IMG/VR virus record: IMGVR_UViG_3300047553_000579
Coordinates: 1 to 20,304 of that record
From: a virus
DNA length: 20,304 nucleotides
Reading direction: 5' to 3' (one strand)
In this document: positions 2,939 through 18,214 of the stretch, one piece after another
Numbering within the stretch: the stretch's first letter is position 1
Layout: each line of letters starts with the position of its first letter
Notes under the pieces: model-generated
Databases searched by the model: none
The model's input: only the letters and a program-made list of their open reading frames with translations
What the model was told of the DNA's origin: nothing
Program-made: the position numbers and the translations under genes

Positions 2939-3699
2939 GCGAATAATTCTCCCTGTGTCTGCAAATTGATGTCAAAAACAATGCTGGCTGAATTGTGCTG
3001 TTCAATTCTTTGCCGCATAAGTATTCCGCGAGCAGCCTTGGTGGGCGGCCTGTAGGAACCAGTCCACCTGCAATCCAATCCAATTGACCTCGCCACCGCC
3101 GTGGAATCAGCAGACGAGAGCGGCAGCTTGGTAAAAATCTCCGGATCCAGCATCCTTAAACCATGCAGTTTGCATGGCAGCTTTCCAGAACTATCCGATA
3201 TATGCCTCATTGCTTTCCCTATCCTTGCCCACCAAGCTGGTGTTTTTGGTGTGGCGAATTCACCAGATGATCCCAGTGCCACCCTCGTAAACCATGAAGC
3301 CAAGCGGGCCAACCGCCCAAAAGATTCATGAAGGTGCCAAACCGGAACGCATTCAGCGTTTCCATACTTTCGACGAGCTGCCCATTTAGACAGAAACCAT
3401 CCGATTAGTTCGTCGTTTTCACGCTCACTGCCATCAATAACATCTGGCACTATCACCCAGTCGCAATTCGGATGAGTCATCGCCTCCAATGACCATTGCA
3501 AATATGGTTGCCAATCGGTTACGGGTTCGCCTTTTTTCCATGCGGAAAACGCGCCGTTATCCAAAACAAAAGATTTCGCTGCTGAGGCAGCAATGCCAAG
3601 CTGTTCTGGGTACCGATGGCTTATAAGTACATGCGCGCCATGAATGATTTGAGCGCATGCCGAATCGGGATTAATTGGCAAACCGTGGTAGTGAATCAT
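2935..3699 (-). CDS. tRNA-guanine-transglycosylase-like (DpdA-like) phage protein
   Basis: A 254-residue protein with a motif pattern I associate with phage TGT-like barrel proteins. It has VLDNGAFSAW (D47), DWVIVPDVIDG (D86), VWHLHESFGRL (H122, H124), VALGSSGEF (S144-G146), KLHGLRMLDPEIF (H179) and SSADSTAVAR (D198). The DNGAF and SADST motifs parallel the DSGAF/DSGGF and SVDS motifs of TGT/DpdA enzymes, which exchange guanine for 7-deazaguanines in tRNA or DNA. Substrate here is unknown: no queC/D/E/F or folE-type gene is in the window, so precursors would come from the host or elsewhere in the phage. ATG at 3699 overlaps the upstream stop (ATGA) with AAGGTGA just before it. Gene presence is near certain; the TGT assignment is moderate. 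Confidence 0.6.
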   Translation of the reverse strand: MIHYHGLPINPDSACAQIIHGAHVLISHRYPEQLGIAASAAKSFVLDNGAFSAWKKGEPVTDWQPYLQWSLEAMTHPNCDWVIVPDVIDGSERENDELIGWFLSKWAARRKYGNAECVPVWHLHESFGRLARLASWFTRVALGSSGEFATPKTPAWWARIGKAMRHISDSSGKLPCKLHGLRMLDPEIFTKLPLSSADSTAVARSIGLDCRWTGSYRPPTKAARGILMRQRIEQHNSASIVFDINLQTQGELFA

Positions 3700-3956
3700 G
3701 TGGTCACCTTCTTTTTCGCTGGGTCTTTTTGGTTTTTGATAGCCCAGACAATTCGATGGCAGTAGTAATGTTTTTTCCTCCAGATAACTTGCCAGTACTG
3801 CTTGTAGCCTTTGTCGACTAGGCAACCCGCCGGCTTTCCAGAGTTGGTGTTGCCGTGGCCAAAATTCCAGCGAAGACCGCTAGGCGTGGAATCATCAAGG
3901 CTAAAAGCTTCGCTTGCCCTAATTAGGTCAATCTTGTTTCGATATGGTTTGCTCAC
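3696..3956 (-). CDS. HNH homing-endonuclease-like N-terminal fragment
   Basis: 86 residues starting at GTG 3956 (GTGA overlap with the upstream stop). The C-terminal half, YKQYWQVIWRKKHYYCHRIVWAIKN, resembles the region of phage HNH homing nucleases or AP2-like domains leading to the first catalytic His (HRIVWAI). The expected continuation (IDHINGD..NR..NLR) is missing: the protein ends KKKVTT and the next gene starts by ATGA. This is either a truncated nuclease reduced to its DNA-binding part or a stand-alone small DNA-binding protein. Intact coupling on both sides suggests it is still translated. Confidence 0.6.
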   Translation of the reverse strand: MSKPYRNKIDLIRASEAFSLDDSTPSGLRWNFGHGNTNSGKPAGCLVDKGYKQYWQVIWRKKHYYCHRIVWAIKNQKDPAKKKVTT

Positions 3957-4420
3957 GCCATCACCCTCCGCCGAATCCTTCGCAGCGCCGCATCGTGCCA
4001 GCGCTGGATGGTTCTTCCGCTAACGCCGTATGCCATGCCAATCGTCGGCCAGCGACCGCCTGCCAACCTCAAGCGGATGATGTCCGAATCCATGGGACTC
4101 ACACCTTCCAACACATCGTCGAGCGTGTGCCGCTTCTGCGGCCTGCACTCCGGATCGAATGCCAAGGCCGCGTGGGTGCGCCGGTACTTCTCAATCAGGC
4201 TTAACTTTCGCCAACGGCATTTCATGAAAAAATATGCCTCAAAGTTCGTATTAGGACTACAGGTCGCAACCGTCTCCACCAGCACCATCATCACCTCGCA
4301 TTCCCATTCGTCCGCGCTCATGCTTGGTGGCGGCCTGAACCGCCTGGCCATGCGCCTGGCCAACTCCACTTTGGAACCGGCATCGTCGCGTTGTTTATCC
4401 GTCAATCGAATCACTGGCAT
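3953..4420 (-). CDS. Sigma-factor-like regulator with C-terminal HTH
   Basis: 155 residues with the architecture of a small sigma-70-like protein. A helical N-terminal part around 18-90 (ARRMARRFRPPP, FEAYFFMKCRWRKLSLIEKYRR) resembles region 2. The C-terminal helix-turn-helix (SDIIRLRLAGGRWPTIGMAYGVSGRTIQRWHDAALRRIRRR, about 112-152) resembles region 4. It may redirect host RNA polymerase, for example to late genes, or act as a simple DNA-binding regulator; the sequence does not decide. Start ATG 4420 has GAGG about 10 bases upstream. The gene ends in a GTGA overlap with the HNH-like fragment. Confidence 0.6.
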   Translation of the reverse strand: MPVIRLTDKQRDDAGSKVELARRMARRFRPPPSMSADEWECEVMMVLVETVATCSPNTNFEAYFFMKCRWRKLSLIEKYRRTHAALAFDPECRPQKRHTLDDVLEGVSPMDSDIIRLRLAGGRWPTIGMAYGVSGRTIQRWHDAALRRIRRRVMA

Positions 4421-4463
4421 CGAAAAATAACCTCATGGTTGGACCGTCCATGGTGGTCTGTTC

Positions 4464-4670
4464 CTAATCGCCTAACACTTCCCACAACTCGTAATCCGCC
4501 TCACTCAGTCGCACTGCCGGGTTGTTCTGGATCAGTTCCAGACTGTGTTCCTGGTGGACTCGTATCGCCAACCGCAAGCGCTCGATCTCATCCCGGTAGG
4601 ATTCGTCGAGCGCTTCCAGCAGTCGTGCCAGAATGCGTTGCGCCTTGGCCTTGCGTTCATCCGTGAGCAT
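4464..4670 (-). CDS. Small helical protein of unknown function
   Basis: 68 residues, almost all predictable as helix: RKAKAQRILARLLEALDES, YRDEIERLRLAIRVHQEHSLELI, then an acidic end (SEADYELWEVLGD). No family recognised. Its ATG (4670) lies 14 bases inside the end of the upstream Cys-rich gene, as in other overlapping pairs here. Likely a small accessory or host-takeover protein, but that is a guess from context only. Confidence 0.65.
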   Translation of the reverse strand: MLTDERKAKAQRILARLLEALDESYRDEIERLRLAIRVHQEHSLELIQNNPAVRLSEADYELWEVLGD

Positions 4671-5301
4671 TGCCGTTCATCCTCGCTTTCAGTCGTTCGA
4701 CTACTGCCATCCATTCCGGGTCACCGTGCTGCTGCCGATGCGCGGTTAGTTCGGCCTCGACCTCTAATCGCCTCATCTGCACCTGTGAGCGCCAGTGCGG
4801 GTTGCGGCGCTCGTATTCGTTGAACGTCATCACCGGTTTTTCCATGCTCAGCCACTTCTGCCGAGACTGCTGGCCTTGCGCACAGTCGCAGGTTGCGGAC
4901 TGTGTGTAGCGCGGCCTGTTCCAATTCACACCGTCCACAAAATCCACATGCGGCAGGCCGGTGATCATTCCCACGTCCCGGCATTTGCGGCAGCGTGTCG
5001 GTTGTGTCAGGTCGGCCAACCGTGCGTCCTCACGCTGGCGTGCGAAACTGGCATCCTGTCGGCTGAGTTCCTCGCGGATAGCTTGCAAGAACTCTGGAGC
5101 AAACCGGGGAATGGTTGTGCGCTTGGCGATGCTATGGCAGGCTGAAACCATCTCCGAGTTAGATCGGGACTCGGCCTCAAACAGTTGCTTCCATGCCAGG
5201 AGCGTTGGTCCCCATGTCGGACTATGAGCCGAGAACAGCGCTTGAAACAAATCCACCCAGTTGGTGACCGGTGGCAGACCACTTGGAACCATCTCACCCA
5301 T
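4657..5301 (-). CDS. Cys-motif protein, possible replication accessory
   Basis: 214 residues. The first ~100 are helical (WVDLFQALFSAHSPTWGPTLLAWKQLF, FAPEFLQAIREELSRQDASFARQRED). Then CRKCRDVGMI ... CDCAQGQ gives a C-x2-C plus C-x-C set about 30 residues apart, resembling zinc knuckles in helicase-loader-type phage proteins. The C-terminus is charged and helical. No Walker A motif is seen, so it is not an ATPase loader by itself. It lies two genes downstream of the replication initiator, so a primosome accessory role is possible but unproven. Its ATG overlaps the upstream gene end by 8 bases. Confidence 0.65.
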   Translation of the reverse strand: MGEMVPSGLPPVTNWVDLFQALFSAHSPTWGPTLLAWKQLFEAESRSNSEMVSACHSIAKRTTIPRFAPEFLQAIREELSRQDASFARQREDARLADLTQPTRCRKCRDVGMITGLPHVDFVDGVNWNRPRYTQSATCDCAQGQQSRQKWLSMEKPVMTFNEYERRNPHWRSQVQMRRLEVEAELTAHRQQHGDPEWMAVVERLKARMNGNAHG

Positions 5302-5485
5302 GGGTTGATTCCTCCGATTTGGCTATCGCAATAAGTTTTTCCAAATCGTCCTTGGCAACCTTCAGCCAAACGGATTTGATTCCCGGCTTTGTCTCCATCC
5401 ATCTTTCTTGAGCCAACTCAATTCCTTCAATGAGCCGGATAAAAAGATCAGCGATAGGCATTTCCTTTTCCAAAGGTCTTTTCAT
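5294..5485 (-). CDS. Small hypothetical protein downstream of the initiator
   Basis: 63 residues (MKRPLEKEMPIADLFIRLIEG ... KDDLEKLIAIAKSEESTHG), helical and charged, not recognised. The frame is open up to 5551, but ATG 5485 is chosen because it makes an ATGA overlap with the initiator's stop (GAATGAAAAG). Transcribed with the initiator and the Cys-motif protein, so perhaps replication-linked. Confidence 0.7.
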   Translation of the reverse strand: MKRPLEKEMPIADLFIRLIEGIELAQERWMETKPGIKSVWLKVAKDDLEKLIAIAKSEESTHG

Positions 5486-6348
5486 TCCACCACCTCGATT
5501 TCGATCAACTTGGCTTTTTCTTGCTCCTGCTCTGCGAACACCTCGGACCATGGCCGGGGTGCCGGTGGTGGTTGCTTTGATGCGGCTGGTGCGCTGCGCT
5601 GCGGGTTATCCACGGTGCGGTTAAACCAGCGCAGCAAGAACGCTGGCATACCTCGCGCCGTCTTGCGCTTCTCAGGGTTGGCCATGATCCAGGCGCGCGC
5701 CTTTTTGATTTCGGCAAAGACATCCAAACCTGGATATGTCGCTTGCCATTCAGCGATAGTAGGTGCAAGCAGATGCCACTCTTTTTGTTTCCCCTGACAC
5801 GGGAAGGTGGCGACAGGCTGAACCGCGACCGGCGGCGAGTCGGTGGGAACCGGCTCGCTGCTATCTTCTACTTGGCTTGAATTGGCTTGGTCTTGGTCTT
5901 GGTCTTGGATTGGTCTTGGAGTAGGCGACTCTAGTACGCTACTCAGTACCGTACTAGAGTACGTTACTGAGTTAGGTACTGAGTACGGTACTGAGTTGCC
6001 TACTGAGTTCGGGTCGCTGGCAAACTCTTTTTTCATGCGCCGGATGTTTCCTTTCACGAATTCAGGACAGTGATCGTGCCAGTCGTGAACAACCAAACGG
6101 TTCACCTCGCACACATCCAGCCAGCCGGATGACACCAAAGCATCTATCAGTTGGTCCGGATCGCCTTCCCATCCGATAGCGTTGGCTATGTCTTCGTTGG
6201 TAAAGGTTTTCCCAAGCGCTCCGTCCTTGGCGTGCTGCGCGGTGAGATGCCAAAGGCTCTCAAGCAGGCCAACCGCTCCCCAAGCTGGGAGAGTCAACCG
6301 GCGGCGCAGGCGCAAAACCTTTGGGTGATTAATGGTGTTTAACTTCAT
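5482..6348 (-). CDS. Replication initiator (winged-helix type) containing an embedded origin
   Basis: 288 residues from ATG 6348, which has TAGGTG 7 bases upstream and follows the ParB-like gene. Residues ~1-105 form a winged-helix-like domain (NHPKVLRLRRRLTLPAWGAV, FTNEDIANAIGWEGD, LVVHDWHDHCPEFVKGNIRR) typical of phage replisome organisers/DnaD-like initiators. Residues ~110-160 are a low-complexity Ser/Val/Asn repeat and a QDQDQDQ run, exactly where the DNA carries iterons and a long palindrome. The C-terminal part (ARAWIMANPEKRKTARGMPAFLLRWFNRTVDNP) is a conserved-looking basic domain that may recruit a helicase or loader. This resembles lambda O, whose gene carries ori. No helicase or polymerase is encoded in the window. 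Confidence 0.8.
   Translation of the reverse strand: MKLNTINHPKVLRLRRRLTLPAWGAVGLLESLWHLTAQHAKDGALGKTFTNEDIANAIGWEGDPDQLIDALVSSGWLDVCEVNRLVVHDWHDHCPEFVKGNIRRMKKEFASDPNSVGNSVPYSVPNSVTYSSTVLSSVLESPTPRPIQDQDQDQANSSQVEDSSEPVPTDSPPVAVQPVATFPCQGKQKEWHLLAPTIAEWQATYPGLDVFAEIKKARAWIMANPEKRKTARGMPAFLLRWFNRTVDNPQRSAPAASKQPPPAPRPWSEVFAEQEQEKAKLIEIEVVE
5886..5920. repeat. CTTGGT hexanucleotide tandem run
   Basis: Three exact tandem CTTGGT units (5886-5903), then CTTGGA, TTGGT and CTTGGA. It encodes the QDQDQDQ run of the initiator on the minus strand and is strongly strand-asymmetric (G/T on plus). It directly abuts the palindrome and iterons, so it may be part of the origin, for instance as a strand-biased segment. 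Confidence 0.7.
5928..5960. repeat. 33-bp near-perfect palindrome in the initiator gene
   Basis: Centred on base 5944: ACTCTAGTAC (5928-5937) pairs with GTACTAGAGT (5951-5960), G5938 with C5950, and the core TACTCAGTA (5940-5948) is itself palindromic. Only the 5939/5949 pair mismatches. The core is an iteron-like unit of the adjacent array. A palindrome of this size beside iterons inside an initiator gene is a strong origin signature. Confidence 0.8.
5965..6009. repeat. Iteron array: four TACTGAGT(T/A) units with 12-bp period (candidate ori)
   Basis: TACTGAGTT at 5965, TACTGAGTA at 5977, TACTGAGTT at 5989 and at 6001, each exactly 12 bp apart, so on roughly the same helical face. A variant TACTAGAGT lies at 5952 and an inverted copy at 5940. 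The spacers (AGG, CGG, GCC) differ, so the 9-mer rather than the period is conserved. This is the expected layout of initiator binding sites. Confidence 0.8.
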
Positions 6349-6358
6349 GGTGTGGCAC

Positions 6359-7279
6359 CTACCGCATATTTGCGAGATCGGCCAAACAGTTCCCATGGCA
6401 CCGCTCTGGGTAGCAGTGGCACACCAGCACCTTGCCGCATAGTTCTCCAGACTTTATGCGGCTATTGATGGATGGTTTGTGTGGCAGGTAGTGCATCTCA
6501 AAGGCATCGCAAACATCATCGCGAGTGCCATCCTCACCCATCACAAATGGGTTGCCGTATCTGGTGCTACGGTCAATCCGAATAGCTTTGCCTTCACGCT
6601 CAGCCCACAAAATAAGGTTCTTGTCAGACTGAGCATTGGCAACAACTGTCTCGCCAGCTTTCACTTTGGCTTGCCGCTCCCGCTCATCTTTTCGCCAATC
6701 GTCTACGGGAATCTTTGCGACTTCCCGCTTGGCATCTTGCAAGGTAATCTTGCCCGCCTTCAAGCGGTCGAAGACTTCCGGTGCTTCTTGCTTGACCTTC
6801 TTTGCGTCAGAAATGTAGCGATGATTGACACCAACAGACCTGGACGCCTCTTCGGTAGCCTTGGGGTTTCTTTCTGTTGTCTTTTCATGTTGTGGAATAA
6901 CTTGGGGAATTTTTTCCCCAAGTTTTTCTTGCTCTTTCTTTGGTCTCCCCTCGGTCTCCTTTCTTCTTTTTGCCGCATCAGCTTCAAAAAACGGAAGCAA
7001 TTCAACGGCAACAGCAGCACGGACCCCGGCGGTCATATGCCGCCGCTTATCATTCAGGGAAACGGCAAACGCTGTCGGTTCATCTCCTGTATACGGTTGC
7101 GTCTTCGGCTCCACACCGATCATCTTGCAGGCCGCGTATCGGTTGCGCCCGTCAAGTATCATTCCCTCGTACAACCAGACGGGAACAAGCTGGCCATTCT
7201 TCTTGATGTCCTCGGCCAGTGCTTGAAGCATGTCCTGCTCCATCATTGGCCAAACATCTGCAATTGGGTGATTCTTCAT
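6359..7279 (-). CDS. ParB-like N-domain / DUF4326 fusion protein
   Basis: 306 residues with two domains. Residues ~1-100 are a ParB/sulfiredoxin-fold N-domain (MLQALAEDIKKNGQLVPVWLYEGMILDGRNRYAACKMIG), followed by a charged linker (GRPKKEQEKLGEKIP) and a KorB-like helical part (ASRSVGVNHRYISDAKKVKQ ... LKAGKITLQDAKREV). Residues ~225-305 match DUF4326 (IRIDRSTRYGNPFV ... GTRDDVCDAFEMHY ... GKVLVCHCYPERCHGNCLADLAN). ParB N-domains can bind CTP and DNA; DUF4326 has no established function but keeps a Cys/His cluster (CHCYPERCHG). Here it may be a DNA-binding regulator or nucleotide-dependent enzyme. ATG overlaps the HNH stop (7276-7279). Confidence 0.8.
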   Translation of the reverse strand: MKNHPIADVWPMMEQDMLQALAEDIKKNGQLVPVWLYEGMILDGRNRYAACKMIGVEPKTQPYTGDEPTAFAVSLNDKRRHMTAGVRAAVAVELLPFFEADAAKRRKETEGRPKKEQEKLGEKIPQVIPQHEKTTERNPKATEEASRSVGVNHRYISDAKKVKQEAPEVFDRLKAGKITLQDAKREVAKIPVDDWRKDERERQAKVKAGETVVANAQSDKNLILWAEREGKAIRIDRSTRYGNPFVMGEDGTRDDVCDAFEMHYLPHKPSINSRIKSGELCGKVLVCHCYPERCHGNCLADLANMR

Positions 7280-7575
7280 CTTCCGTGAATCCTCTTATGG
7301 CAGGCCTTGCAAACAAGCATGTAGTCAGAGTCTTGGTACTCCCAAGGCTCAAGTTCTGGGTCGTACTTCAAATGGTGAACAGCAATCCCTGTCCCGTGGA
7401 TGCCACACGCCTGGCATCTATGTCCACGGGCAGACAGTAAGGCCAATCTCTTGGCTTTCCACTGTTGATCCACCAGCTTGCGCCGATATGTTGCTGGGTT
7501 GTTTTTTTTAAACGGTGAACCTGAACGACAACCCAGGTGGATTGAAAAGCGACAATGTTGCCAATGACAAACCAC
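7276..7575 (-). CDS. HNH nuclease domain in the -1 frame of the upstream gene
   Basis: The recognisable part runs from about KKNNPATYRRKLVDQQWKAKRL to the stop: HRCQACG (C-x2-C), IAVHHLKYDPELEPWEY, CKACHKRIH. This is a complete zinc-braced HNH domain of roughly 75 residues. The first ~20 codons after GTG 7575 look non-coding, and neither that GTG nor any other start has a Shine-Dalgarno. The frame is exactly -1 relative to 7368-8177, and the coding signal switches frames at a TTTAAAAAAAA run. The domain is thus probably made as a C-terminal extension of the upstream protein by -1 frameshifting, or the A8 run has an indel. Its stop overlaps the ParB-like start. Confidence 0.75.
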   Translation of the reverse strand: MVCHWQHCRFSIHLGCRSGSPFKKNNPATYRRKLVDQQWKAKRLALLSARGHRCQACGIHGTGIAVHHLKYDPELEPWEYQDSDYMLVCKACHKRIHGR

Positions 7576-8177
7576 TTGTCGTAATCAATGTTGGATAACT
7601 GCATGTTTTCCCAAAGCCTGTCAGGCCTGCTTGGGTTTTTGCGTATCCATTCATAAGCTTCGTGTGAGCAAAGCTGGCTTTCATGCGGCTTACCAGACTG
7701 GCCAACCCACCGCACATATGGCTTTTGCGGTGTCTCGCTTTGTGTCTGATAAAGGTCCGGCGATTCCTCAAATTCACGATGCGTCATCGTGTAGCCAATG
7801 CCACTTTGATTAACGCGCACAACGCCAATGCTGTCCTTTTCTTTGTTCAAAACATCAACAGGATCGCCTTGGAAATCTCGACAGCATGAATCAAGTATTT
7901 CCCTTTTATGCTCGCGATCCACAATTTTTCCTGGCACCTGTCTAGCCGAAACTAGTTTCCAACTCCTTTTCCTTGAGTCTTTGTTGCTGGCAATTACATC
8001 CACTTCGCATCTGTCCCACAGGCTCAGGCCATCCATTTTGCCTTGGTACTCAGAAAAGACTCGAAAAAACCCAAGGTCGTCATCGCCAAGCAATATGGCG
8101 CATTGAACAACTCGCCGGTCCTGCGTCCTGTTTGGCGCACCTATTCCAATTACTGTGCCAGTTAGCTTTTCGCTCAT
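7368..8177 (-). CDS. Unknown protein, probable N-terminal part of an HNH fusion
   Basis: 269 residues from ATG 8177 (GGGAGGTG just upstream; ATGA overlap with the previous gene); the frame opens to 8216 but the extension is not needed. Family not recognised. The N-terminus is beta-rich (KLTGTVIGIGAPNRTQDRRVVQCAILLGDDDLGFFRVFSEY, then CEVDVIASN), perhaps OB-like. The middle is charged, and a Trp-rich stretch (DKWFVIGNIVAFQSTWVVVQVHRLKK) ends at the slippery A8 run. After that the zero frame continues 45 codons over the HNH gene with poor-looking sequence. The functional product may be the -1 fusion with HNH, perhaps a DNA-binding nuclease. Confidence 0.65.
   Translation of the reverse strand: MSEKLTGTVIGIGAPNRTQDRRVVQCAILLGDDDLGFFRVFSEYQGKMDGLSLWDRCEVDVIASNKDSRKRSWKLVSARQVPGKIVDREHKREILDSCCRDFQGDPVDVLNKEKDSIGVVRVNQSGIGYTMTHREFEESPDLYQTQSETPQKPYVRWVGQSGKPHESQLCSHEAYEWIRKNPSRPDRLWENMQLSNIDYDKWFVIGNIVAFQSTWVVVQVHRLKKTTQQHIGASWWINSGKPRDWPYCLPVDIDARRVASTGQGLLFTI
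7473..7512 (-). promoter_or_regulatory. Candidate programmed -1 frameshift signal
   Basis: Minus strand: slippery heptamer T TTA AAA (7512-7506) in the zero frame of the upstream gene, inside an A8 run. Eight bases later comes CCAGC (7497-7493), able to pair with GCTGG (7477-7473) across a 15-base loop. The -1 frame enters the HNH domain directly. Heptamer type, frame and spacing all match the bacterial/phage rule, though the 5-bp stem is weak. Confidence 0.5.
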
Positions 8178-8524
8178 GCCACCACCTCCCAAACTGCAAT
8201 CGGCCTTCCATGACATTCCGGCCTGCGACTAGAAATCACCCGGTCAGTTTTCCGGATGATGTTTCGGCGTGCTGCTTCCTGAAACGCTGCACCCATAGCG
8301 CGTGGTTCTGGCGGATGAATGACCAGCGGCCACACGTCATCCGAACTGATCAGCCGATGAGTAAGTGACACATGCCGAATGGCGTTGATCGTGTCCTCAA
8401 TCCAGTTAGGTGGAGCGTTTGCGGCCACCTGCTGAATCGCCTTGTCCCGCAATTCCGCTCCTGTTGGTGGCGGCAACTGCATACCGTAGGCATCCACGCC
8501 TCCAAAAAGGTCGTTCTGTTTCAC
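8174..8524 (-). CDS. Conserved phage protein of unknown function
   Basis: 116 residues from GTG 8524 with GAGGG 8 bases upstream. The pattern ELRDKAIQQVAANAP ... FRRAA-like RAMGAAFQEAARRNIIRKTDRVISSRRPECHGRPIAVWEV is one I recall in many actinobacterial and proteobacterial phages, usually unnamed and near replication genes. SSDDVWPL followed by the Ala-rich helix and basic SRRPECHGRP reads as a winged-helix-like DNA-binding fold, but this is inference. It is coupled to the following gene (ATGA). Confidence 0.75.
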   Translation of the reverse strand: MKQNDLFGGVDAYGMQLPPPTGAELRDKAIQQVAANAPPNWIEDTINAIRHVSLTHRLISSDDVWPLVIHPPEPRAMGAAFQEAARRNIIRKTDRVISSRRPECHGRPIAVWEVVA

Positions 8525-8542
8525 GTCTAATCCCTCAAATTG

Positions 8543-9007
8543 TCAGAATGGGAAATCGTCGTTGCCGAATTCCTTGCCGGGTTGCGGATTAACCACCGGC
8601 GGTTCGGAATGGTACGAGTCGTACTCGACAACCTCCGCAGACTGCTTGCCGTTCCACTCACGCAAACGAGTTTTTACCCGCAACTTGTGGCCAACCAGAT
8701 CTGCGGAGGATCCCAGCTTTTCAATGCCGCAGGCGCGTTGGATGGAGCGCAGAGTTGCCAAGGCAATCTCTACAGCTTTGGTGGAACGGTTCTTCAGGTT
8801 CAGCCGGTCCCAAATCCGCTGGCCGGCAAACTCGCCATGCTCAATCCGCAGCACCAGTTCGAGGTATTCACCGTCTCCGGCCTTGGTGGACTTGGTGTCC
8901 TCAGAAACAATCTCGACAAAGTAGGTTCCCGGTCGAATGGTCTCGTACTGGCGCTTTTCCTGTGGTTTGGTGCCGGCCAGCATCGCATCGAATTCGCTCA
9001 GATCCAT
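8543..9007 (-). CDS. DUF669-family ssDNA-binding-like protein
   Basis: 154 residues from ATG 9007, with GGAGGG upstream. It begins MDLSEFDAMLAG, as DUF669 proteins often do, then a beta-rich core (PGTYFVEIVSEDTKSTKAGDGEYLELVLRIEHGEFAGQRIWDRLNL) and ends FGNDDFPF. This acidic, Phe-terminated tip is the hallmark of SSB-type proteins that recruit partners. It follows the annealing-protein gene by 13 bases, the usual pairing of recombinase and ssDNA-binding protein in phages. It probably coats ssDNA during replication and recombination. Confidence 0.82.
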   Translation of the reverse strand: MDLSEFDAMLAGTKPQEKRQYETIRPGTYFVEIVSEDTKSTKAGDGEYLELVLRIEHGEFAGQRIWDRLNLKNRSTKAVEIALATLRSIQRACGIEKLGSSADLVGHKLRVKTRLREWNGKQSAEVVEYDSYHSEPPVVNPQPGKEFGNDDFPF

Positions 9008-9020
9008 TGGTATTCCCTCC

Positions 9021-9758
9021 TTACTGTGCAATTGCCGAACGCTCGGCAATCATGGTTTGCAAACTGTCCAAAACTTCCTCGGCCTGCGCCTCGGTGAGAT
9101 CCTTGGCGCTTTTCACGCCGTAGGTTTGGCGCATCTCGCTGCGGAATTTCTCCGCGTCATCGATCACGCCTTCCCGCTTAGCTCGGGAAATAAGGCCGAC
9201 GATCTTTTGCATGGTCTGCTCGGATACATTGCGCTCGACCTTTGCCTCGGGTGTTTCCACCGCAGGCATCGATGTTGTCTGCACCGGCATCGCTCTTGTT
9301 TCAATTTCAGCGTGTGGTATCTCTTCCGCCGGCGTGGTCTCCAATCCGGCATCGAGCAGCGGAACAATCCACGCCAGCGCCGAGCGACAAGCCCGACTGG
9401 TGGCTCGGGTCTGCGCCATCGCACGGCGCGCATACCGTGGCCGGCGTGCCCAGGTGGATTCATCCACGCCGAGATAACCTTCAGCCGATGCGACGATTTC
9501 GCCATCGCTCAGGCGCACCAGATCGCACACGGCGCGGATGTCACCGTTGCTCAGTTCCTCAACGGTGCCGATGCGTGGCGAATACCCGCACGATGCGGCC
9601 AGCGCTTGCCAGCCCTCCGCTTTGATGTAGGTCTTACCCTGCAACTGCATCGAGCATTTGAGGACAATCTGCCGGCAGGCATTTGCCGTCGCTTGCCCTC
9701 GGGTCACAACCAACTGCGGATTGTTCGGTTCGATCACTGCGATTGCTGTCTCACTCAC
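9021..9758 (-). CDS. Putative ssDNA-annealing recombinase
   Basis: 245 residues from GTG 9758, chosen for AGGAGGTG about 9 bases upstream. The core motif set is YIKAEGWQALAASCGYSPRI, GDIRAVCDLVRLSDGEIVASAEGYLG, RPRYARRAMAQTRATSRACRSAL and TPAEEIP. This matches a phage family with MAQTRA/TPAEE motifs usually found beside ssDNA-binding proteins and exonucleases, which I regard as a likely Rad52/Sak-like annealing protein (not proven). A Pro/Thr/Ala-rich linker (160-185) leads to a helical C-terminal domain (VSEQTMQKIVGLISRAK ... AEEVLDSLQTMI). It would pair homologous ssDNA during recombination. No exonuclease is visible in the window. Confidence 0.65.
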   Translation of the reverse strand: MSETAIAVIEPNNPQLVVTRGQATANACRQIVLKCSMQLQGKTYIKAEGWQALAASCGYSPRIGTVEELSNGDIRAVCDLVRLSDGEIVASAEGYLGVDESTWARRPRYARRAMAQTRATSRACRSALAWIVPLLDAGLETTPAEEIPHAEIETRAMPVQTTSMPAVETPEAKVERNVSEQTMQKIVGLISRAKREGVIDDAEKFRSEMRQTYGVKSAKDLTEAQAEEVLDSLQTMIAERSAIAQ

Positions 9759-9771
9759 GGTCCACCACCTC

Positions 9772-9954
9772 CTAGTTAACATTCATCAAACGACGCATCA
9801 GATTCCGTCTGGCCGGTGGCTTATGCTTCAGGCAGGTCGTGCTGCCAGGCATCGCCATGAATTTTTTTGAGCCTCGACACATCACGCAGAACCCAACCAG
9901 TTGCCGATACCGCTCCGTCTCCCGGCGCTGTTTTTCCACTTTCGATCTGTGCAT
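9772..9954 (-). CDS. Small Cys/His protein overlapping the preceding gene
   Basis: 60 residues. ATG 9954 has a textbook AGGAGG six bases upstream. The sequence is basic with a possible metal site: GFCVMCRGSKKF (C-x2-C) and TTCLKHKPPARR (C-x2-H). The gene overlaps the end of the TTG-start gene (9821-10102) by 134 bases in another frame, so both may be translated or only one. Small zinc-finger-like proteins are frequent in this operon. No specific function can be given. Confidence 0.6.
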   Translation of the reverse strand: MHRSKVEKQRRETERYRQLVGFCVMCRGSKKFMAMPGSTTCLKHKPPARRNLMRRLMNVN

Positions 9955-10102
9955 CCAAAGCCTCCTGCCGATTCGAAAAAATCAAAGCCGCGCCAGCGTG
10001 TCGAAACGCCGATGATGCCGACCATCGCGCGGGCCTGTGGTGGTTGGGTGCCACAAGCGTGGTAAAAGGCTCGCCGTTCGGTTCAGAGTTTGGAAGGTTC
10101 AA
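9821..10102 (-). CDS. Hypothetical protein, TTG start
   Basis: 93 residues beginning NLPNSEPNGEPF after a TTG at 10102 with GGGAGG about 7 bases upstream. Middle part: AFRHAGAALIFSNRQEALDAQIESG; end: ATGWVLRDVSRLKKIHGDAWQHDLPEA. The sequence looks genuinely coding but no family is recognised. It overlaps the next gene by 134 bases. The alternating charged/hydrophobic pattern near the end suggests a compact alpha/beta domain. Confidence 0.55.
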   Translation of the reverse strand: MNLPNSEPNGEPFTTLVAPNHHRPARWSASSAFRHAGAALIFSNRQEALDAQIESGKTAPGDGAVSATGWVLRDVSRLKKIHGDAWQHDLPEA

Positions 10103-10328
10103 GGCTCCGCCTCCCAGTCCTAAACATCAAGCGCCAACCCGTACCACCATTTCACCCCCAGGGAATCGAACCCTGGCGCACACGCCAGCAGGTGAACACC
10201 AGATCTAAACTGCAAAGAAAGAATCAGCACCAATGCACTTACTGTTGAAAGGGAGCCTCCTTTACTGTCCTCCGGGTTTAACTTGATCCACCAGCACCGG
10301 AGCATCTGGCGGACTCCACGACAGTGGC
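10103..10328. other. Gap with no convincing gene; holds a tRNA-like hairpin
   Basis: Minus-strand frames are open here (to 10120 and 10262) but have no good start, and their sequence does not look coding except for a short Cys-rich stretch, FCVACPTARHCWTCLEP, encoded at about 10340-10390. This may be a frameshifted end of the 10329-10673 gene. GGAGG motifs at about 10250 and 10265 lack a matched start codon. Confidence 0.35.
10151..10196 (-). other. tRNA T-arm-like hairpin (degenerate tRNA or RNA element)
   Basis: On the minus strand, CAGGG-TTCGATT-CCCTG is a perfect T-arm with consensus T-loop (GGTTCGATTCC). It is enclosed by TTCACC (10196-10191) and GGTGAA (10156-10151), which pair fully. 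An alternative hairpin CTGGCG-TGTG-CGCCAG (10188-10173) competes with it. No D-arm or acceptor partner for GGGGGTG is seen upstream, so it is not a working tRNA. It may be a tRNA remnant, an old att site or a tRNA-mimic. Confidence 0.45.
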
Positions 10329-10673
10329 TCAAGGCATGTCCAGCAGTGACGCGCGGTCGGACAGGCCACGCAAAACCAAGGCAAACCATTCGCTTGGGTG
10401 TCTCTTGTGGCATCCGAAAACTTTCGGAAACATCCAGAATTTGCCAGGGCCGGATGGAGCATTGCGCCGTTCCTCCACCCACACGCTGGGCTGAAGGTAT
10501 CCGTCCTGGTCGATCTCAGTTCTGACCAGAAACCTCCAGCACCCATCGACCGTCGTTCCCTGCCAGTGTCCTTGGCACCCGGCCTGCACCCACGCGTTGT
10601 AGAACTCGACGAAGCGCAGCGACTGGTCATCCGCGTTCTGGCGCAGCAGCTCGGGCAGAATGTTGGCACTCAT
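10329..10673 (-). CDS. Hypothetical Trp-rich early protein
   Basis: 114 residues; ATG 10673 overlaps the upstream stop (ATGA) with AGGAGG four bases before it. Sequence: MSANILPELLRQNADDQSL, FVEFYNAWVQAGCQGHW, GCWRFLVRTEIDQDGYLQPSVWVEER, GKFWMFPKVFGCHKRHPSEW. Not recognised. After about residue 90 an alternative frame carries a C-x2-C / C-x2-C stretch ending at 10262, so the true C-terminus might be reached by frameshift; either end is possible. Confidence 0.65.
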   Translation of the reverse strand: MSANILPELLRQNADDQSLRFVEFYNAWVQAGCQGHWQGTTVDGCWRFLVRTEIDQDGYLQPSVWVEERRNAPSGPGKFWMFPKVFGCHKRHPSEWFALVLRGLSDRASLLDMP

Positions 10674-10921
10674 GCCGCCTCCTTTCGCTTCGCCTCAAAA
10701 TGCATCAACCGGCAATCGGTACACCACGGTCGGTTTGTTTCCGGCACTCGGCTGTTGGCGCTTTGCCCAATCCAGCCTCTGGCTCGGTAGACCATCGTGT
10801 CGGTCAGTTCATCGCGCTTCGCGTCGTATGGAATCTGGAACCGCTGGCAGATCGAGCAGACCGACAGGCGTGTCGCTGCTGACAGATCCAGACTGTTGAA
10901 GTGCGGGTCGGTTATCTGCAT
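10670..10921 (-). CDS. Small zinc-ribbon-like protein
   Basis: 83 residues from ATG 10921 (AAGGA about 7 bases upstream). It has VCSICQRFQIPYDAK (C-x2-C) and, about 45 residues later, RPWCTDCRLMHFEAK (C-x2-C): a four-Cys zinc ribbon with a tyrosine/arginine-rich middle (TMVYRARGWIGQ). No named family. It overlaps the end of the preceding gene by 113 bases and is coupled to the next by ATGA. Probably nucleic-acid or protein binding. Confidence 0.7.
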   Translation of the reverse strand: MQITDPHFNSLDLSAATRLSVCSICQRFQIPYDAKRDELTDTMVYRARGWIGQSANSRVPETNRPWCTDCRLMHFEAKRKEAA

Positions 10922-11006
10922 CGTCAAATCCTTCGTTAAGCATCTTCCTGATGTGGTCTTCCCAAATGGTTCCTTCAAGAGCCGCGCTGATCTGTTCGAT
11001 GGTCAT
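10809..11006 (-). CDS. Small hypothetical protein, 3' part overlapping the zinc-ribbon gene
   Basis: 65 residues. ATG 11006 has GGAGG upstream and an ATGA overlap with the previous stop. The first ~35 residues look coding (MTIEQISAALEGTIWEDHIRKMLNEGFDDADN). The remainder overlaps the zinc-ribbon gene in another frame and may be read-through until the first stop. Not recognised. Confidence 0.5.
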   Translation of the reverse strand: MTIEQISAALEGTIWEDHIRKMLNEGFDDADNRPALQQSGSVSSDTPVGLLDLPAVPDSIRREAR

Positions 11007-11197
11007 GCGTCCTCCTCAATTGGTTCGTCGTGGTCGTAGTTGCGGTCGGTCAGCACCTCGGGCCGGAATGCTCCCATTCGGCGCTCGATGCAATGACCGC
11101 ACACCCGAGCCAGGTACAGGCCGCGCGCGTCGTACATGTCCCTGGACATTTCTCCTGAACCGCATGGGCAGTCCTTGAGGGATGCAATGATCTTCAT
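11003..11197 (-). CDS. Small Cys-rich phage protein
   Basis: 64 residues: SLKDCPCGSGEMSRDMYDARGLYLARVCGHCIERRMGAFRPEVLTDRNYDHDEPIEEDA. The C-x-C-x-S-G motif, DARG(L/I)Y and V-C-x2-C, followed by FRPE..TD.NY, define a small zinc-knuckle protein I have seen in several phage early operons, always uncharacterised. It is coupled on both sides by ATGA and has GGAGG before ATG 11197. It probably binds a metal; partner unknown. Confidence 0.8.
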   Translation of the reverse strand: MKIIASLKDCPCGSGEMSRDMYDARGLYLARVCGHCIERRMGAFRPEVLTDRNYDHDEPIEEDA

Positions 11198-11442
11198 TGG
11201 TCAATCCTCCTGCTCAGCCCGGAAGCAGCGCCAGCAAAGGCCGGAGATGTCTCCGAAATCGGCGCTTCCGCACTTGCCGCAGGTTCCGATTCGCACAGGT
11301 TCTCCCGCAGCACCTGAAGCGCCTTGGGACCGCTGACATAGACGCGGATCTTTCCGTTGTGCTTCTTCAGCGTGATCCATACTTCGACCCCTTCGTGGCT
11401 AACCCGGAATGACTCTTTGTCCCGGCATGTGATGACCAACAT
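11194..11442 (-). CDS. csrA: CsrA-like RNA-binding protein with extended tail
   Basis: 82 residues. The first ~48 align well with CsrA (MLVITCRDKESFRV..VEVWITLKKHNGKIRVYVSGPKALQVLREN): MLxIT start, E10, the G-K-IRV strand, the GPK turn and V44-L-R46-E47. R46 corresponds to the RNA-binding R44 of E. coli CsrA; the Arg normally at position 6 is Cys here. A Glu/Ala/Ser-rich tail of about 34 residues is extra (typical CsrA is ~61 aa). CsrA binds GGA motifs in mRNA leaders, repressing or stabilising them. In a lysogen it could reset host expression or control this GGA-rich operon. GGGGAGG lies upstream of ATG 11442. Confidence 0.8.
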   Translation of the reverse strand: MLVITCRDKESFRVSHEGVEVWITLKKHNGKIRVYVSGPKALQVLRENLCESEPAASAEAPISETSPAFAGAASGLSRRIDQ

Positions 11443-11458
11443 CAGCTGACCTCCCCTA

Positions 11459-11596
11459 TCAGTTCCCCATCACCCTTGCGGTGACGGCGCAATCCATTGC
11501 AGGCGAATAAGACACCTGAACCTCGTACCTCATCGCCGAACATCCACACAGCACGGCGCACACCAGAACGACACACAGATTCCACAGGTTGTTCAT
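11459..11596 (-). CDS. Small predicted lipoprotein (45 aa)
   Basis: Frame from ATG 11596 to TGA 11459: MNNLWNLCVVLVCAVLCGC, then SAMRYEVQVSYSPAMDCAVTARVMGN. The hydrophobic segment followed by LCGC matches a lipobox (L-x-G-C), so it is likely a lipid-anchored envelope peptide. AAGGCGG lies about 6 bases upstream, and it is the first gene of the leftward early operon, 16 bases before csrA. A superinfection-exclusion or host-envelope role is possible but unproven. Confidence 0.6.
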   Translation of the reverse strand: MNNLWNLCVVLVCAVLCGCSAMRYEVQVSYSPAMDCAVTARVMGN

Positions 11597-11614
11597 GTTG
11601 CACCGCCTTGGCGT

Positions 11615-11636
11615 ATGTTTACCCGGAAGTAAACAT
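11615..11636. promoter_or_regulatory. Operator palindrome ATGTTTAC-N6-GTAAACAT
   Basis: Perfect 8-bp inverted repeat with a six-base spacer in the divergent control region. A related half-site, GTTTAC, recurs at 11649-11654 inside TAGTA-GTT-TACTA (11644-11656), so three GTTTAC half-sites alternate in orientation. A good candidate binding site for one of the two DNA-binding proteins encoded nearby. Confidence 0.6.
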
Positions 11637-11643
11637 GAGTCAA
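11615..11643 (-). promoter_or_regulatory. Leftward early promoter overlapped by an operator
   Basis: Minus strand: -35 TTGACT (11643-11638), 17-bp spacer, weak -10 AAACAT (11620-11615), just upstream of the lipoprotein/csrA operon. The operator palindrome lies over the spacer and -10, as in repressor-controlled phage early promoters. The -35 is good; the -10 is poor. Confidence 0.45.
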
Positions 11644-11656
11644 TAGTAGTTTACTA
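11644..11656. promoter_or_regulatory. Second operator-like dyad TAGTA-GTT-TACTA
   Basis: A 5-bp inverted repeat with three-base spacer, carrying the same GTTTAC as the main palindrome. It lies upstream of the leftward -35 and about 80 bp upstream of the rightward gene, so it could influence both transcripts. Confidence 0.45.
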
Positions 11657-11738
11657 CCGGTTTCTACATCGACACCAAACGCCTTTGTTGTTGACGCAAA
11701 ACGGCTAGAATTGTTGGTTAGGGAGGTGCATCAGAAAA

Positions 11739-11987
11739 ATGGTCAGACAACCGCAACCAAACTATCCGGTGAGACTTGATGCCTTGACTCATGCAAGGCT
11801 CAAATTGGCATCCGAACAGTCCAAACCGCAGTCAACGATGAACGCAATTGCGATTCATGCGATAACCATTTACTTGGAGCAGCATTTCCCAGAAATCATT
11901 TCTTCCGTAACTGCCGCTCTAGGCTCCGAGACTCCCGCCGAGACGGAAGGCGCAAAACCGAAGGCGCGGAAGCCTCGGAAGAAATAG
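11739..11987 (+). CDS. Small Arc/ribbon-helix-helix-like regulator
   Basis: 82 residues, one of only two plus-strand genes. The core NYPVRLDALTHARLKLASEQS ... MNAIAIHAITIYLEQHF has the beta strand (YPVRL) plus two helices expected of a ribbon-helix-helix protein. A Lys/Pro/Ala-rich basic tail (KPKARKPRKK) could bind DNA. ATG 11739 has GGGAGG 12 bases upstream; TAGAAT at 11706-11711 is a fair -10, with no good -35. It faces the leftward early operon across the GTTTAC operators, so it may repress it. Its 3' end overlaps the convergent HTH gene by 92 bases. Confidence 0.6.
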   Translation: MVRQPQPNYPVRLDALTHARLKLASEQSKPQSTMNAIAIHAITIYLEQHFPEIISSVTAALGSETPAETEGAKPKARKPRKK

Positions 11988-12180
11988 GGTTGTTGGGCTG
12001 CATTTCAGCCAGAAATCTGTAAACCGAATCTTGGGTGATCCGGAAATTGCGCCCGATGCGTTGCGCGTCGAGCCGATGATTCTTGCCGGCAATGTGTACG
12101 CCGGTGGTGATCCAACTCAAAACAGTGTTGGGTGAAACGGCCAACTGGTTGGCCACTTCAGTCGTTCGCAGATACTCCAC
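11896..12180 (-). CDS. MerR/excisionase-type HTH protein
   Basis: 94 residues from GTG 12180. EYLRTTEVANQLAVSPNTVLSWITTGVHIAGKNHRLDAQRIGRNFRITQDSVYRFL is a typical excisionase-family winged HTH: HTH at about 4-25, then the R-I-G-R-N-F-R-I wing with DSVYRFL. The Ser/Arg-rich tail (SRRESRSLERQLRKK) is basic. Located next to attP and integrase, on the opposite strand, it is a strong candidate for the excisionase/recombination directionality factor, though it could be a repressor. The 3' end overlaps the convergent gene, so the two messages would be antisense. Confidence 0.75.
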   Translation of the reverse strand: MEYLRTTEVANQLAVSPNTVLSWITTGVHIAGKNHRLDAQRIGRNFRITQDSVYRFLAEMQPNNPISSEASAPSVLRLPSRRESRSLERQLRKK

Positions 12181-12364
12181 TGATTGTTATCCCGGAAATC
12201 GTCCAGGCCTTGCTGGCACCTGGCAGACCGCCGACTTGGCGATCAGGGTAGAGGTCAACTGCCCCCTACACTTCTACTGTACGCATGTTCAGTACAACCG
12301 GTCAACCCGGTGTACCCGGATTAAATTACCAGCGACTGCTTTGTTGGCAACTAAGAAAAACAAG

Positions 12365-12401
12365 AATTACCGAATTACCGAAATTGCACTTCCGTACCGA
12401 A
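12365..12401. repeat. Left cluster of TTACCGAA repeats (putative integrase arm sites)
   Basis: AATTACCGAA at 12365-12374, AATTACCGAAA at 12373-12383 (sharing two bases with the first) and TACCGAA at 12395-12401, all in the same orientation, about 95-130 bp left of the tRNA-half core. They match the copies on the right, as arm-type sites of a tyrosine integrase would. Confidence 0.6.
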
Positions 12402-12495
12402 GAAATCAGGGGAAAATGGGGGTAAGTGTTGGTCGCCAGAACGGTGGCTGAACTGCAAAAACAGCTTGTTTTGTAGTCTTTTCCCGATTTTTCAA

Positions 12496-12542
12496 TTTGG
12501 TTTGGGACCAAGAAGTCGCAGGTTCGAATCCTGTCGCCCCGA
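12496..12542 (+). other. attP core: 3' half of tRNA-Pro(UGG)
   Basis: The bases fold as the 3' half of tRNA-Pro: anticodon stem TTTGG (12496-12500) with loop TTTGGGA (12501-12507: U33, anticodon UGG, G37) and CCAAG (12508-12512). Variable loop AAGTC follows, then T-arm GCAGG-TTCGAAT-CCTGT (12518-12534), acceptor 3' strand CGCCCCG (12535-12541) and discriminator A12542. There is no D-arm or 5' acceptor strand and no CCA. This is the classical phage attP that rebuilds the host tRNA gene on integration. The integrase starts 66 bases downstream. Confidence 0.85.
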
Positions 12543-12595
12543 ATACCCAAAACCTCTGGAAAACAAGGGAAAAACGCAAAGGAGCAAGCTCGGTT

Positions 12596-12682
12596 AGGAT
12601 TACCGAAAATGCCTGAAGATTACCGAAAAAAGAAGCAGGTACCGAAGGACTCTACCGAAATTCCGTCAGGATTACCGAAAAT
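12596..12682. repeat. Right cluster of TTACCGAAA repeats, running into the integrase gene
   Basis: AGGATTACCGAAAAT occurs exactly twice (12596-12610 and 12668-12682). ATTACCGAAAAA is at 12619-12630, TACCGAA at 12640-12646 and TACCGAAA at 12653-12660. The copies fall in different codon frames of the integrase start, so conservation is at DNA level. With the three left copies this gives eight same-direction sites around attP. Confidence 0.7.
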
Positions 12683-13760
12683 CCGGGTGCCTACCCTGCG
12701 CCAGCACAAGGCATCCGGTCGGTCCTATGTGACGATCCCTGGCACAAAACGGGTGGTCTACTTTGGTCCAACCGGGGTAATCGAAACTCAATTGGCTTAT
12801 GCCAAATGGGTAGAAGAATATATCAGAGAAAATGTTGGGGAAATCAAAACACGCATCCCTCAAAAGGTTCACACCTGGGCAGGCCTGCTGGCATGGTGGT
12901 TGGAGGAATGCCGGCGTGAGTATGTCCGGCTCGATGGCAGGCCCACCGGGGAATACGGCGTATGCAAGCGCGCGGCCCAGCTGATTGCCGATTTCGGCCT
13001 TGGAACGGTGCCGCTCAAGAAGATCTCCCGCCAGCACATGCACCTCGTCCGCGACCGTCTGGCGATGGGAAAGAAAAAGGTAAGCGCCAAGACGATCCGA
13101 GAGTACATGGGTCGACTGGTCAGGTGTTTTTCCAAGGCCGAAAAACAGGACTGGATTACCAGCGAACAGTTCATCCGATTGTCCAGGTGGGAGCGTGTCC
13201 GGGGATTCGGCAAGAAATCCAAACAGATCGAGCCAATCCCGATTCGCCACCTGGCCATGCTGCGACATTCACTTACCGGACGATGGCGACAGATTTTTGA
13301 TTTTCATTTGTATACCGGCCAGCGTGCCGAGACCGCCATCACCGCCAGCGCCAAGGAATTCAAGCGAACTGGCACCACATGGCAATACATTCCCCGCCAG
13401 CACAAAGGCCGGCATCGAGGCCAAAAATTGGTGATCCTGTTGGGACCGAAGGCGCGCCGAGCGGTAGCGCCGTTCATTGATTCGGCCAAGGCCGGCGGGT
13501 TGTTGTTTCCCACAAGCAAAGGCGGAACCATTCTTAAGGACACATACCGAAATGTGTTTGTCAGGAAATGTCAAGAACTCGGCTTGCCAGCGTACACGCC
13601 GCGCCAGATCCGACACACGGCAGCGACCTATCTAAAGCTGAAAGGCGTGGACACCGATGTGATCGGGTCCATTCTTGGCCACCAGTCGGGAAACATCACG
13701 CTGAGATATGCTCAGATCACCGAGGCGCAAAGGCAATCGGTGGTTGAAAAGTACGGTTAA
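12609..13760 (+). CDS. int: Tyrosine recombinase (phage integrase)
   Basis: 383 residues. N-terminal arm-binding part: RQHKASGRSYVTIPGTKRVVYFGPTG (about 31-56). A core-binding SAM-like domain (~90-200) comes next. Catalytic domain: R239 in TGQRAET, K266 in RQHKGRH, R335-H336 in IRHTAA, H358 in LGH, nucleophile Y367 in LRYAQ. The usual box-II His (H-x-x-R) is Arg332 here, a substitution also seen in relatives of this layout. The start at ATG 12609 has TTAGGA about 9 bases upstream; GTG 12687 is an alternative that would leave every arm repeat outside the gene. It integrates the phage at tRNA-Pro(UGG), with the HTH gene as likely directionality factor. Its stop overlaps the convergent C39 gene. 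Confidence 0.92.
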   Translation: MPEDYRKKKQVPKDSTEIPSGLPKIRVPTLRQHKASGRSYVTIPGTKRVVYFGPTGVIETQLAYAKWVEEYIRENVGEIKTRIPQKVHTWAGLLAWWLEECRREYVRLDGRPTGEYGVCKRAAQLIADFGLGTVPLKKISRQHMHLVRDRLAMGKKKVSAKTIREYMGRLVRCFSKAEKQDWITSEQFIRLSRWERVRGFGKKSKQIEPIPIRHLAMLRHSLTGRWRQIFDFHLYTGQRAETAITASAKEFKRTGTTWQYIPRQHKGRHRGQKLVILLGPKARRAVAPFIDSAKAGGLLFPTSKGGTILKDTYRNVFVRKCQELGLPAYTPRQIRHTAATYLKLKGVDTDVIGSILGHQSGNITLRYAQITEAQRQSVVEKYG

Positions 13761-14188
13761 CCCACCACAATTCCCCACCGCCTGAACACCGTCCCATGCC
13801 GGTCCACATCGTGCCAGCGCTTATCGAACCGCCTCGGCGTTTCGACGATCGGTCCGCGTGTGGGACATTGAAAATGCAACCGCCGGTCCCGGCTGCCAGC
13901 GCAGACCATGTAATGACCAGTCACAGGTTCACCAATAGTTTTTGCCAGGACAATGGTCGGCCTTTTGCTGCGCGCAAAATACACCAGATCCGATACCGTC
14001 ATTTCCCCGCTGAGGACCGGCAGGCCTGAAACTCGCAGCGCAGCTTCGAGCGTTCTGGGATCGGTGCCATCGATCTGGTTGGAATCGACCTTCCGGCGTG
14101 GCATCCCGAAATACTGCCACACGATCTGGCAGCACACGGCACCGCAGTCGTAGTCGGTTTGCTGCCGCAGGTCCGGCAACTGAATCAC
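13757..14188 (-). CDS. C39-like cysteine peptidase domain protein
   Basis: 143 residues from GTG 14188 (GTGA overlap with the upstream stop). It has the C39-like signature QQTDYDCGAVCCQIVWQYFG with catalytic C15 after Q10, and GHYMVCAG with H92. The Asp normally found in the DP-x-x-G motif is Cys108 (FQCPTRGP), so catalysis is uncertain. C39-like domains cleave peptides or peptidoglycan-linked peptides; in a late phage block it may aid lysis or virion processing. It has no signal peptide. Its 3' end overlaps the integrase stop (13757-13760). Confidence 0.75.
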   Translation of the reverse strand: MIQLPDLRQQTDYDCGAVCCQIVWQYFGMPRRKVDSNQIDGTDPRTLEAALRVSGLPVLSGEMTVSDLVYFARSKRPTIVLAKTIGEPVTGHYMVCAGSRDRRLHFQCPTRGPIVETPRRFDKRWHDVDRHGTVFRRWGIVVG

Positions 14189-15051: not shown

Positions 15052-15058
15052 GGGAACC

Positions 15059-15385
15059 TCACGGTCGGGTGCGGACTTTAGCCAGGAACGCGGCTGAATC
15101 TTCACGGACTGCGGGGTTGTAGCTTTGCCAGTCAAACAAGTGGCCAAATGCAAGATGGCAGGAATCTCCGCACAGTGTGAGGAGATTGGCCGGGTCTAGC
15201 TCCGCATCGCGGTTCAGGTGAAATGGCACCACATGGTGGACCTCCAAGTCCTTGGAGCGTCCGCAAGCGGCGCAGGTCGGGAACTGCGTTAGATGCTTGG
15301 ACCGGACGGCGCGCCAGCCGGGAGATCTGGGAACACCCAGCCACATTTCAAACTGTGGCTGGAGCAGTTTCCGCCAGAGGCTCAT
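15059..15385 (-). CDS. HNH endonuclease (late block)
   Basis: 108 residues from ATG 15385, which overlaps the upstream stop as TAATG. Motifs: RSPGWRAVRSKHL, C-x2-C (FPTCAACG), LEVHHVVPFHL (catalytic HH), LDPANLLTLC, and SCHLAFGHLFDW. This variant (EVHHVVPF ... GHLFDWQSYNP) is the type I associate with planctomycete phages and genomes. It is the fourth HNH-type protein in the window, between a membrane protein and the metallophosphoesterase. Packaging nuclease, homing nuclease or phage defence are possible. Confidence 0.88.
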   Translation of the reverse strand: MSLWRKLLQPQFEMWLGVPRSPGWRAVRSKHLTQFPTCAACGRSKDLEVHHVVPFHLNRDAELDPANLLTLCGDSCHLAFGHLFDWQSYNPAVREDSAAFLAKVRTRP

Positions 15386-15699: not shown

Positions 15700-15710
15700 G
15701 AAACACCTCA

Positions 15711-16019: not shown

Positions 16020-16022
16020 GTA

Positions 16023-17783: not shown

Positions 17784-17786
17784 CTC

Positions 17787-18206: not shown

Positions 18207-18214
18207 GATTCCTC

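Follow-up and report, generated by a model that had tools for sequence, protein, structure and literature searches.

The window analysed here, by which we mean the whole stretch of DNA, is the 20,304-base virus record IMGVR_UViG_3300047553_000579 (positions 1 to 20,304). On its minus strand lies a string of overlapping reading frames arranged around a run of eight A's (henceforth A8), the features of which are, in the order of decoding:

8174..8524, minus strand: small gene upstream of DuOB (phrog_27658), overlapping the DuOB start as ATGA
7503..8177, minus strand: common N-terminal part, a DuOB / phrog_25907 / PDC-M19B-like domain of 225 aa, putatively a tandem OB fold (family profile E=5e-18, PDB OB-fold matches)
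7501..7510, minus strand: putative slip site TAAAAAAAAC, with A8 at 7502-7509 and an in-phase A_AAA_AAA at 7509-7503, invariant in 16/16 sequences
7368..7502, minus strand: frame-0 C-terminal tail, 44 aa plus a TGA stop, the end of the non-shifted product
7377..7391, minus strand: frame-0 motif QGLLF (family consensus STGQxLLFTT), Q-x-x-[LM]-F in 16/16
7276..7503, minus strand: putative HNH nuclease segment in the -1 frame (PF01844 above cut-off), with its TGA stop at 7278-7276
6359..7279, minus strand: ParB-like plus DUF4326 gene (DUF4326 E=2e-15), the ATG of which overlaps the HNH stop as ATGA

The DuOB open reading frame (7368-8177) starts with an ATG at 8177 that is preceded by a strong Shine-Dalgarno sequence and overlaps the upstream gene as ATGA. 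The HNH frame is open from 7584 to 7276 and, as a first-pass annotation of this DNA had stated and the coordinates confirm, is offset by exactly -1 and meets the DuOB frame at A8; downstream of A8 the two frames overlap for 129 nt. Around the run, minus-strand positions 7517-7500 read CAC CGT TTA AAA AAA ACA, so that both T_TTA_AAA (7512-7506) and A_AAA_AAA (7509-7503) are in phase. One added A would fuse the two frames, and the shifted product (DuOB-HNH) would be ~301 aa in all, with HRLKKNNPATYR as the predicted junction peptide. Two more HNH genes lie elsewhere in the window (87-485 and 15059-15442 (-)), and the phage thus carries at least three HNH domains.

The two halves of the locus

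The upstream half had been annotated as an unknown protein. Searched against Pfam it has no match, DuOB included, and its direct matches in other libraries are weak (phrog_25907 at 0.0018 and PADLOC PDC-M19B at E=0.001). A divergent Haloquadratum plasmid protein opened the way to a family found in a cyanophage and on plasmids of archaea, cyanobacteria and Paraburkholderia, and a profile of eight such plasmid and phage homologues matches the window ORF over its full length (E=5e-18), the match ending at A8. Judged by this homology over the whole domain, the upstream half is a DuOB / PDC-M19B-like OB-fold protein and hence a member of a recognisable family. Its relatives match the PADLOC candidate defence protein PDC-M19B, and two from Sulfolobales weakly match Pfam DuOB (dual OB domain). 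A structure model built from 17 sequences had a mean pLDDT of 63.7, good over residues 1-120 and low in the tail (an earlier model from 4 sequences, with a pLDDT of 34, was unusable), and its likenesses in the PDB are to RPA, LEF-3, PriB, SSB and HIN domains, that is, to OB-fold DNA-binding proteins. The first OB region of the model is confident and resembles RPA, PriB and SSB; the second half is of low confidence.

Relatives of the upstream half can adjoin DUF488 (PDC-M19A) or DUF4326 proteins. A DUF488 partner is seen next to DuOB relatives in cyanobacteria, on the plasmids of which it comes after DuOB, and in unrelated phages (L025-L027) the DuOB gene comes immediately after a DUF4326 gene that overlaps it, the association of DUF488 or DUF4326 with DuOB being a recurring partnership. 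Since the PDC-M19A (DUF488) partner gene is not in the window and the ParB-DUF4326 gene is present in its stead, we do not file the locus as a PDC-M19 system. ADP-ribose derivatives have been proposed, and no more than proposed, as possible substrates of DUF4326 (PMC9503650); papers on DUF4326 or DUF488 with OB domains yielded nothing beyond that proposal.

The -1-frame segment scores 22.8 bits against PF01844 (cut-off 21.4) and keeps the C-x2-C, HH and CH residues common to standalone phage HNH proteins. By profile and residues it thus meets the description of the HNH endonuclease family PF01844, from which nuclease activity is inferred. HNH conservation begins at a Thr-Tyr pair (7491-7486), and the boundary between the DuOB domain and the HNH family falls at A8. 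Standalone phage HNH endonucleases (Pan5_49, Abp95, L119) have the same TYxxKLxxPxW ... C-x2-C ... HH ... CH domain and an ATG of their own just before the conserved Thr-Tyr, whereas in the window A8 and the codons that follow it take the place of that ATG and contain no start.

The A8 run is conserved in related loci

Single-protein scans of viral contigs with either half returned just one contig, identical to the window over the compared part (window 3024-20304) and also carrying A8, and so suggested a singleton. This reading was overturned by profile scans with HNH and DuOB alignments, which were needed to find 17 further contigs. The resulting comparison set consists of 18 other virus contigs from 18 metagenomes, and the 16 distinct sequences have a DNA identity of 62-96% and a tree length of ~2.6 substitutions per site. 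All of these relatives belong to one group of phage loci, and two scans of genome contigs gave no match. Phages related through neighbouring genes (L005-L010 and L035) have other cassettes at this spot: in L005, L006 and L007 the upstream genes are 74-85% identical, yet the DuOB-HNH-ParB segment is swapped for wholly different cassettes, which marks its position as a variable early-region slot. Two HNH genes in this group were considered and set aside. The standalone HNH gene of L006, with its own ATG, is of a different subfamily; in L035 (10593-11109) an HNH frame overlaps a small ORF in a different frame but without an A run, and may start at an internal ATG.

In every compared contig the DuOB ORF runs through A8 with the HNH frame at -1. 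The run is exactly A8 in all 18 other contigs and A7 or A9 in none, and among the 16 sequences the two bases before it are CT (14) or TT (2) and the base after it is C. In the 16-way alignment (530 aligned bases) the longest invariant stretch is TAAAAAAAAC. The third bases of the Leu, Lys and Lys codons within the run are all invariant, as against none of the 29 upstream codons in which the amino acid never varies and the third base is degenerate; local Lys codons are AAG 65 times and AAA 22 times, and CTA and TTA together make up 7/150 Leu codons. The first-pass annotation had placed the slip at a TTTAAAA heptamer and had proposed an alignment of homologues. Such an alignment shows both frames meeting at A8 in all relatives and A_AAA_AAA in phase in 16/16; TTTAAAA, while in phase in the window, does not hold up as the slip element, for T_TTA_AAA is found in just 2/16, and the conserved signal is therefore A8 (with A_AAA_AAA in phase). 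The 20.3 kb window has no other homopolymer of at least 8 bases, and A8 is the sole one in 15/16 loci. The exception, L098, also has a C13 (at position 495), which may be an assembly artefact or a tract of variable length. In codon-resampled regions, the chance of an A8 or T8 run in the 71-codon overlap is 0.8%, that of an in-phase [A/T]3AAAN heptamer is 3.2% and that of any heptamer is 24%. A8 thus meets both the trait of a slippage site (a conserved A/T run of about 8-9 or longer at which a one-base change restores a single ORF) and that of a programmed -1 frameshift (a conserved in-phase X_XXY_YYZ heptamer, here A_AAA_AAA).

Singleton frame transitions are mostly errors, indels or overlaps (PMC3711429), and on that base rate a private indel was the favoured reading until A8 was found in other metagenome contigs. 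A homopolymer sequencing error, a recent inactivating indel (the first-pass annotation had raised both such an error and a real indel) or an assembly error would create the same picture in a single sequence, and one relative, L100, breaks off at its 3' end inside the run (CTAAAAA), perhaps because assembly failed at the homopolymer. Against this, the run has the same length of exactly eight A's in another 18 contigs, drawn from 18 metagenomes, in which both frames are intact and under selection; the conservation of the site takes the locus out of the class of errors, indels and overlaps, and we regard an artefact or a recent lesion as virtually ruled out.

The ends of both frames are likewise shared. 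The DuOB frame stops at the same codon in 15/16; in L097 the frame-0 TGA is changed to GGA, which would lengthen the short product. In 15/16 the HNH stop and the start of the next gene overlap as ATGA, so the HNH frame seems to be in use right up to its stop, and the next gene is ParB-DUF4326 in those relatives in which it is readable.

The HNH frame has no credible start of its own

A different explanation would make HNH a distinct gene that overlaps DuOB and has its own, internal start codon in the -1 frame. In 14/16 sequences there is a GTG or ATG 72 bases before the HNH entry, in 12/16 there is a start codon at -33, and some have a moderate anti-Shine-Dalgarno energy. The codon at -72 is, however, forced by an invariant Lys-Trp that frame 0 encodes there. 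One relative (L092) has no HNH-frame start codon at all between the upstream stop and A8, and another (L095) has only the GTG at -33. In the window, no start of the HNH frame is preceded by a Shine-Dalgarno sequence that rises above background: the anti-Shine-Dalgarno energies are +0.4 for GTG 7575 and -1.7 for GTG 7473, compared with a random median of -3.2, which bears out the earlier judgement that HNH lacks a credible start. Furthermore, the -1-frame peptide before A8 is unconserved, and cross-species substitutions in that stretch follow frame 0 only and reveal no -1 coding constraint. An internal start would also leave the conservation of A8 unexplained, and we consider it very unlikely. 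The locus accordingly meets a further frameshift trait, namely frame-0 coding upstream, -1 coding downstream and no other way to start the HNH ORF.

Both frames are under selection in the overlap

Substitutions were compared in eight disjoint, independent sequence pairs, counting those silent in frame 0 but changing HNH against those silent in HNH but changing frame 0, with opportunities similar across the classes. The ratio is 197:22 before the overlap, 48:42 within the 129-nt overlap and 17:53 after it, and the near balance within the overlap indicates that it is constrained in both frames. Because the relatives all come from a single group of phage loci, the cells of these counts are not fully independent. 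The first-pass annotation had described the coding signal as switching to the HNH frame in this stretch; codon usage within the window does not agree, favouring frame 0 (+5.8 bits, against +0.6 for the -1 frame), and the substitutions between species show that both frames are used.

The frame-0 tail is free of stop codons in all 16 sequences, and random synonymous HNH codons would, on average, leave it open in just 56% of trials. The tail motif Q-x-x-[LM]-F occurs in 16/16. The Gln of STGQxLLF forces an invariant A at a four-fold site of the HNH frame in 16/16, while the HNH residue encoded there varies (Ala, Ser, Thr or Pro); this four-fold site is frozen because the frame-0 Gln is kept, so the Gln is selected independently of HNH. 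Part of the tail conservation, such as the final FTT, does follow from HNH residues.

The consensus of the C-terminal sliding-clamp motif is Q-L-x-L-F (PMC4549789). The tail motif resembles such a clamp-binding peptide (Q at position 1, a hydrophobic residue at 4 and F at 5), except that position 2 is not Leu, and there are no binding data. Distant DuOB homologues from bacteria end in EQLSLF (L018 and L019) and PQRALF (L022), and a haloarchaeal one in SQPGLDSF (L017). Again without binding data, EQLSLF and PQRALF look like beta-clamp peptides and SQPGLDSF somewhat like an archaeal PCNA motif, and on the evidence of these termini the whole DuOB family may be clamp-tethered.

The agent of the inferred slippage

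Programmed -1 frameshifting is usually, not obligatorily, assisted by a downstream structure or a Shine-Dalgarno-like element, and here that criterion is not met. The 5-bp stem noted in the first-pass annotation (CCAGC/GCTGG) is indeed present as bases, but it is absent from the minimum-energy fold, the energy of which is ordinary (z -0.97), and it is not conserved. Consensus folding of the 16 sequences gave no significant structure (z between -1.7 and +0.2), no upstream Shine-Dalgarno-like stimulator is conserved (anti-Shine-Dalgarno energies being mostly at background level), and Rfam has no match at the locus. In the absence of a conserved structure or stimulator the efficiency of recoding may be low.

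The lack of a conserved ribosomal stimulator also suits transcriptional slippage, in which RNA polymerase adds one A and the resulting A9 mRNA is read as a plain in-frame DuOB-HNH fusion. All eight A's are invariant, though A_AAA_AAA needs only seven, and IS elements of D. radiodurans and Nostoc have been suggested to make productive use of slippage by RNA polymerase on A8 (PMC1088944). The same work places the usual onset of selection against slippage in bacteria at nine A's (PMC1088944), and the eighth A is also part of a frame-0 Thr and an HNH Asn, so its conservation has other possible causes. Moreover, ribosomes of E. coli shift efficiently on A_AAA_AAA itself, and do so without stimulators (PMC4066793). 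From sequence alone, -1 frameshifting by the ribosome cannot be told apart from slippage by RNA polymerase. We lean, without much assurance, towards an inference of the ribosome slipping at A_AAA_AAA, and slippage by RNA polymerase remains a real possibility that we do not favour.

Discussion

The architecture of the locus, the nucleotide-level conservation of A8 and the dual coding of the overlap are direct observations, while slippage at a useful rate is inferred from them. In the absence of any expression, RNA, ribosome or peptide evidence, we are nonetheless highly confident that A8 is a site of conserved programmed -1 recoding, by either the ribosome or RNA polymerase. That such recoding joins the upstream protein to HNH alongside a shorter product, as first proposed from the window alone, is thus supported by conservation in 16 distinct sequences, with no expression shown. 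Normal decoding would give the DuOB protein with a 44-residue tail that carries a clamp-binding-like QxLLF near its end. A slip of one base back on A8 would join the same N-terminal, putatively DNA-binding domain to the HNH domain, which, having no usable start of its own, would be reached by the slip. The gene would in this manner set the ratio of a non-nuclease to a nuclease form.

What the two products do is far less certain. A short form that binds DNA while tethered to a sliding clamp, and a long form that acts as a nuclease, are inferred without binding or activity data, and we put this forward as a suggestion slightly short of an even chance. The fuller proposal, more tentative still, is that the A8 slip site is a C-terminal switch in a phage-borne relative of a candidate anti-phage-defence protein, in which the clamp peptide of the in-frame form would bring the OB-fold protein to the replication fork and would give way to HNH in the -1 form, the two C-termini sharing 129 dual-coding bases.

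The closest parallel in design is that of the IS3-type OrfA/OrfAB transposases, in which the DNA-binding part is made alone or fused to the catalytic part by -1 frameshifting. There too, -1 slippage on an A-rich run fuses a DNA-binding N-terminus to an overlapping catalytic frame. In contrast, the present locus is not an insertion sequence, its domains (OB-fold and HNH) are unrelated to those of IS3, its frame-0 tail is selected over 129 nt and no conserved stimulatory structure was found. Thermus dnaX and the A8-A9 IS elements, which employ transcriptional slippage, likewise have an A run before alternative C-termini and a one-A slip that alters the product; here, A8 is also an in-phase ribosomal heptamer and the agent is undetermined. 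Like the tail-assembly chaperones of dsDNA phages (G / GT), the locus has a conserved phage frameshift with a short and a long product, but in an early-region DNA-binding/nuclease gene, differing in position and function. Finally, its N-terminal 225 aa are homologous over their full length to PDC-M19B (PADLOC), DuOB and phrog_25907, the homologues of which on plasmids, in a cyanophage and in L025-L027 lack the HNH fusion.

The best-known conserved programmed frameshifts of dsDNA phages are those of tail-assembly genes, and in the literature searched (open-access papers only) we came across no description of programmed frameshifting for an HNH gene of a phage. The present site would join a putative nuclease to a DNA-binding relative of a candidate defence family, and both C-termini show signs of selection. 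The locus offers a compact system for a test of ribosomal versus transcriptional slippage. Ordinary gene callers would truncate or lose the DuOB-HNH enzyme. Finally, the locus suggests a route by which a standalone HNH gene may be captured by its neighbour via a homopolymer.
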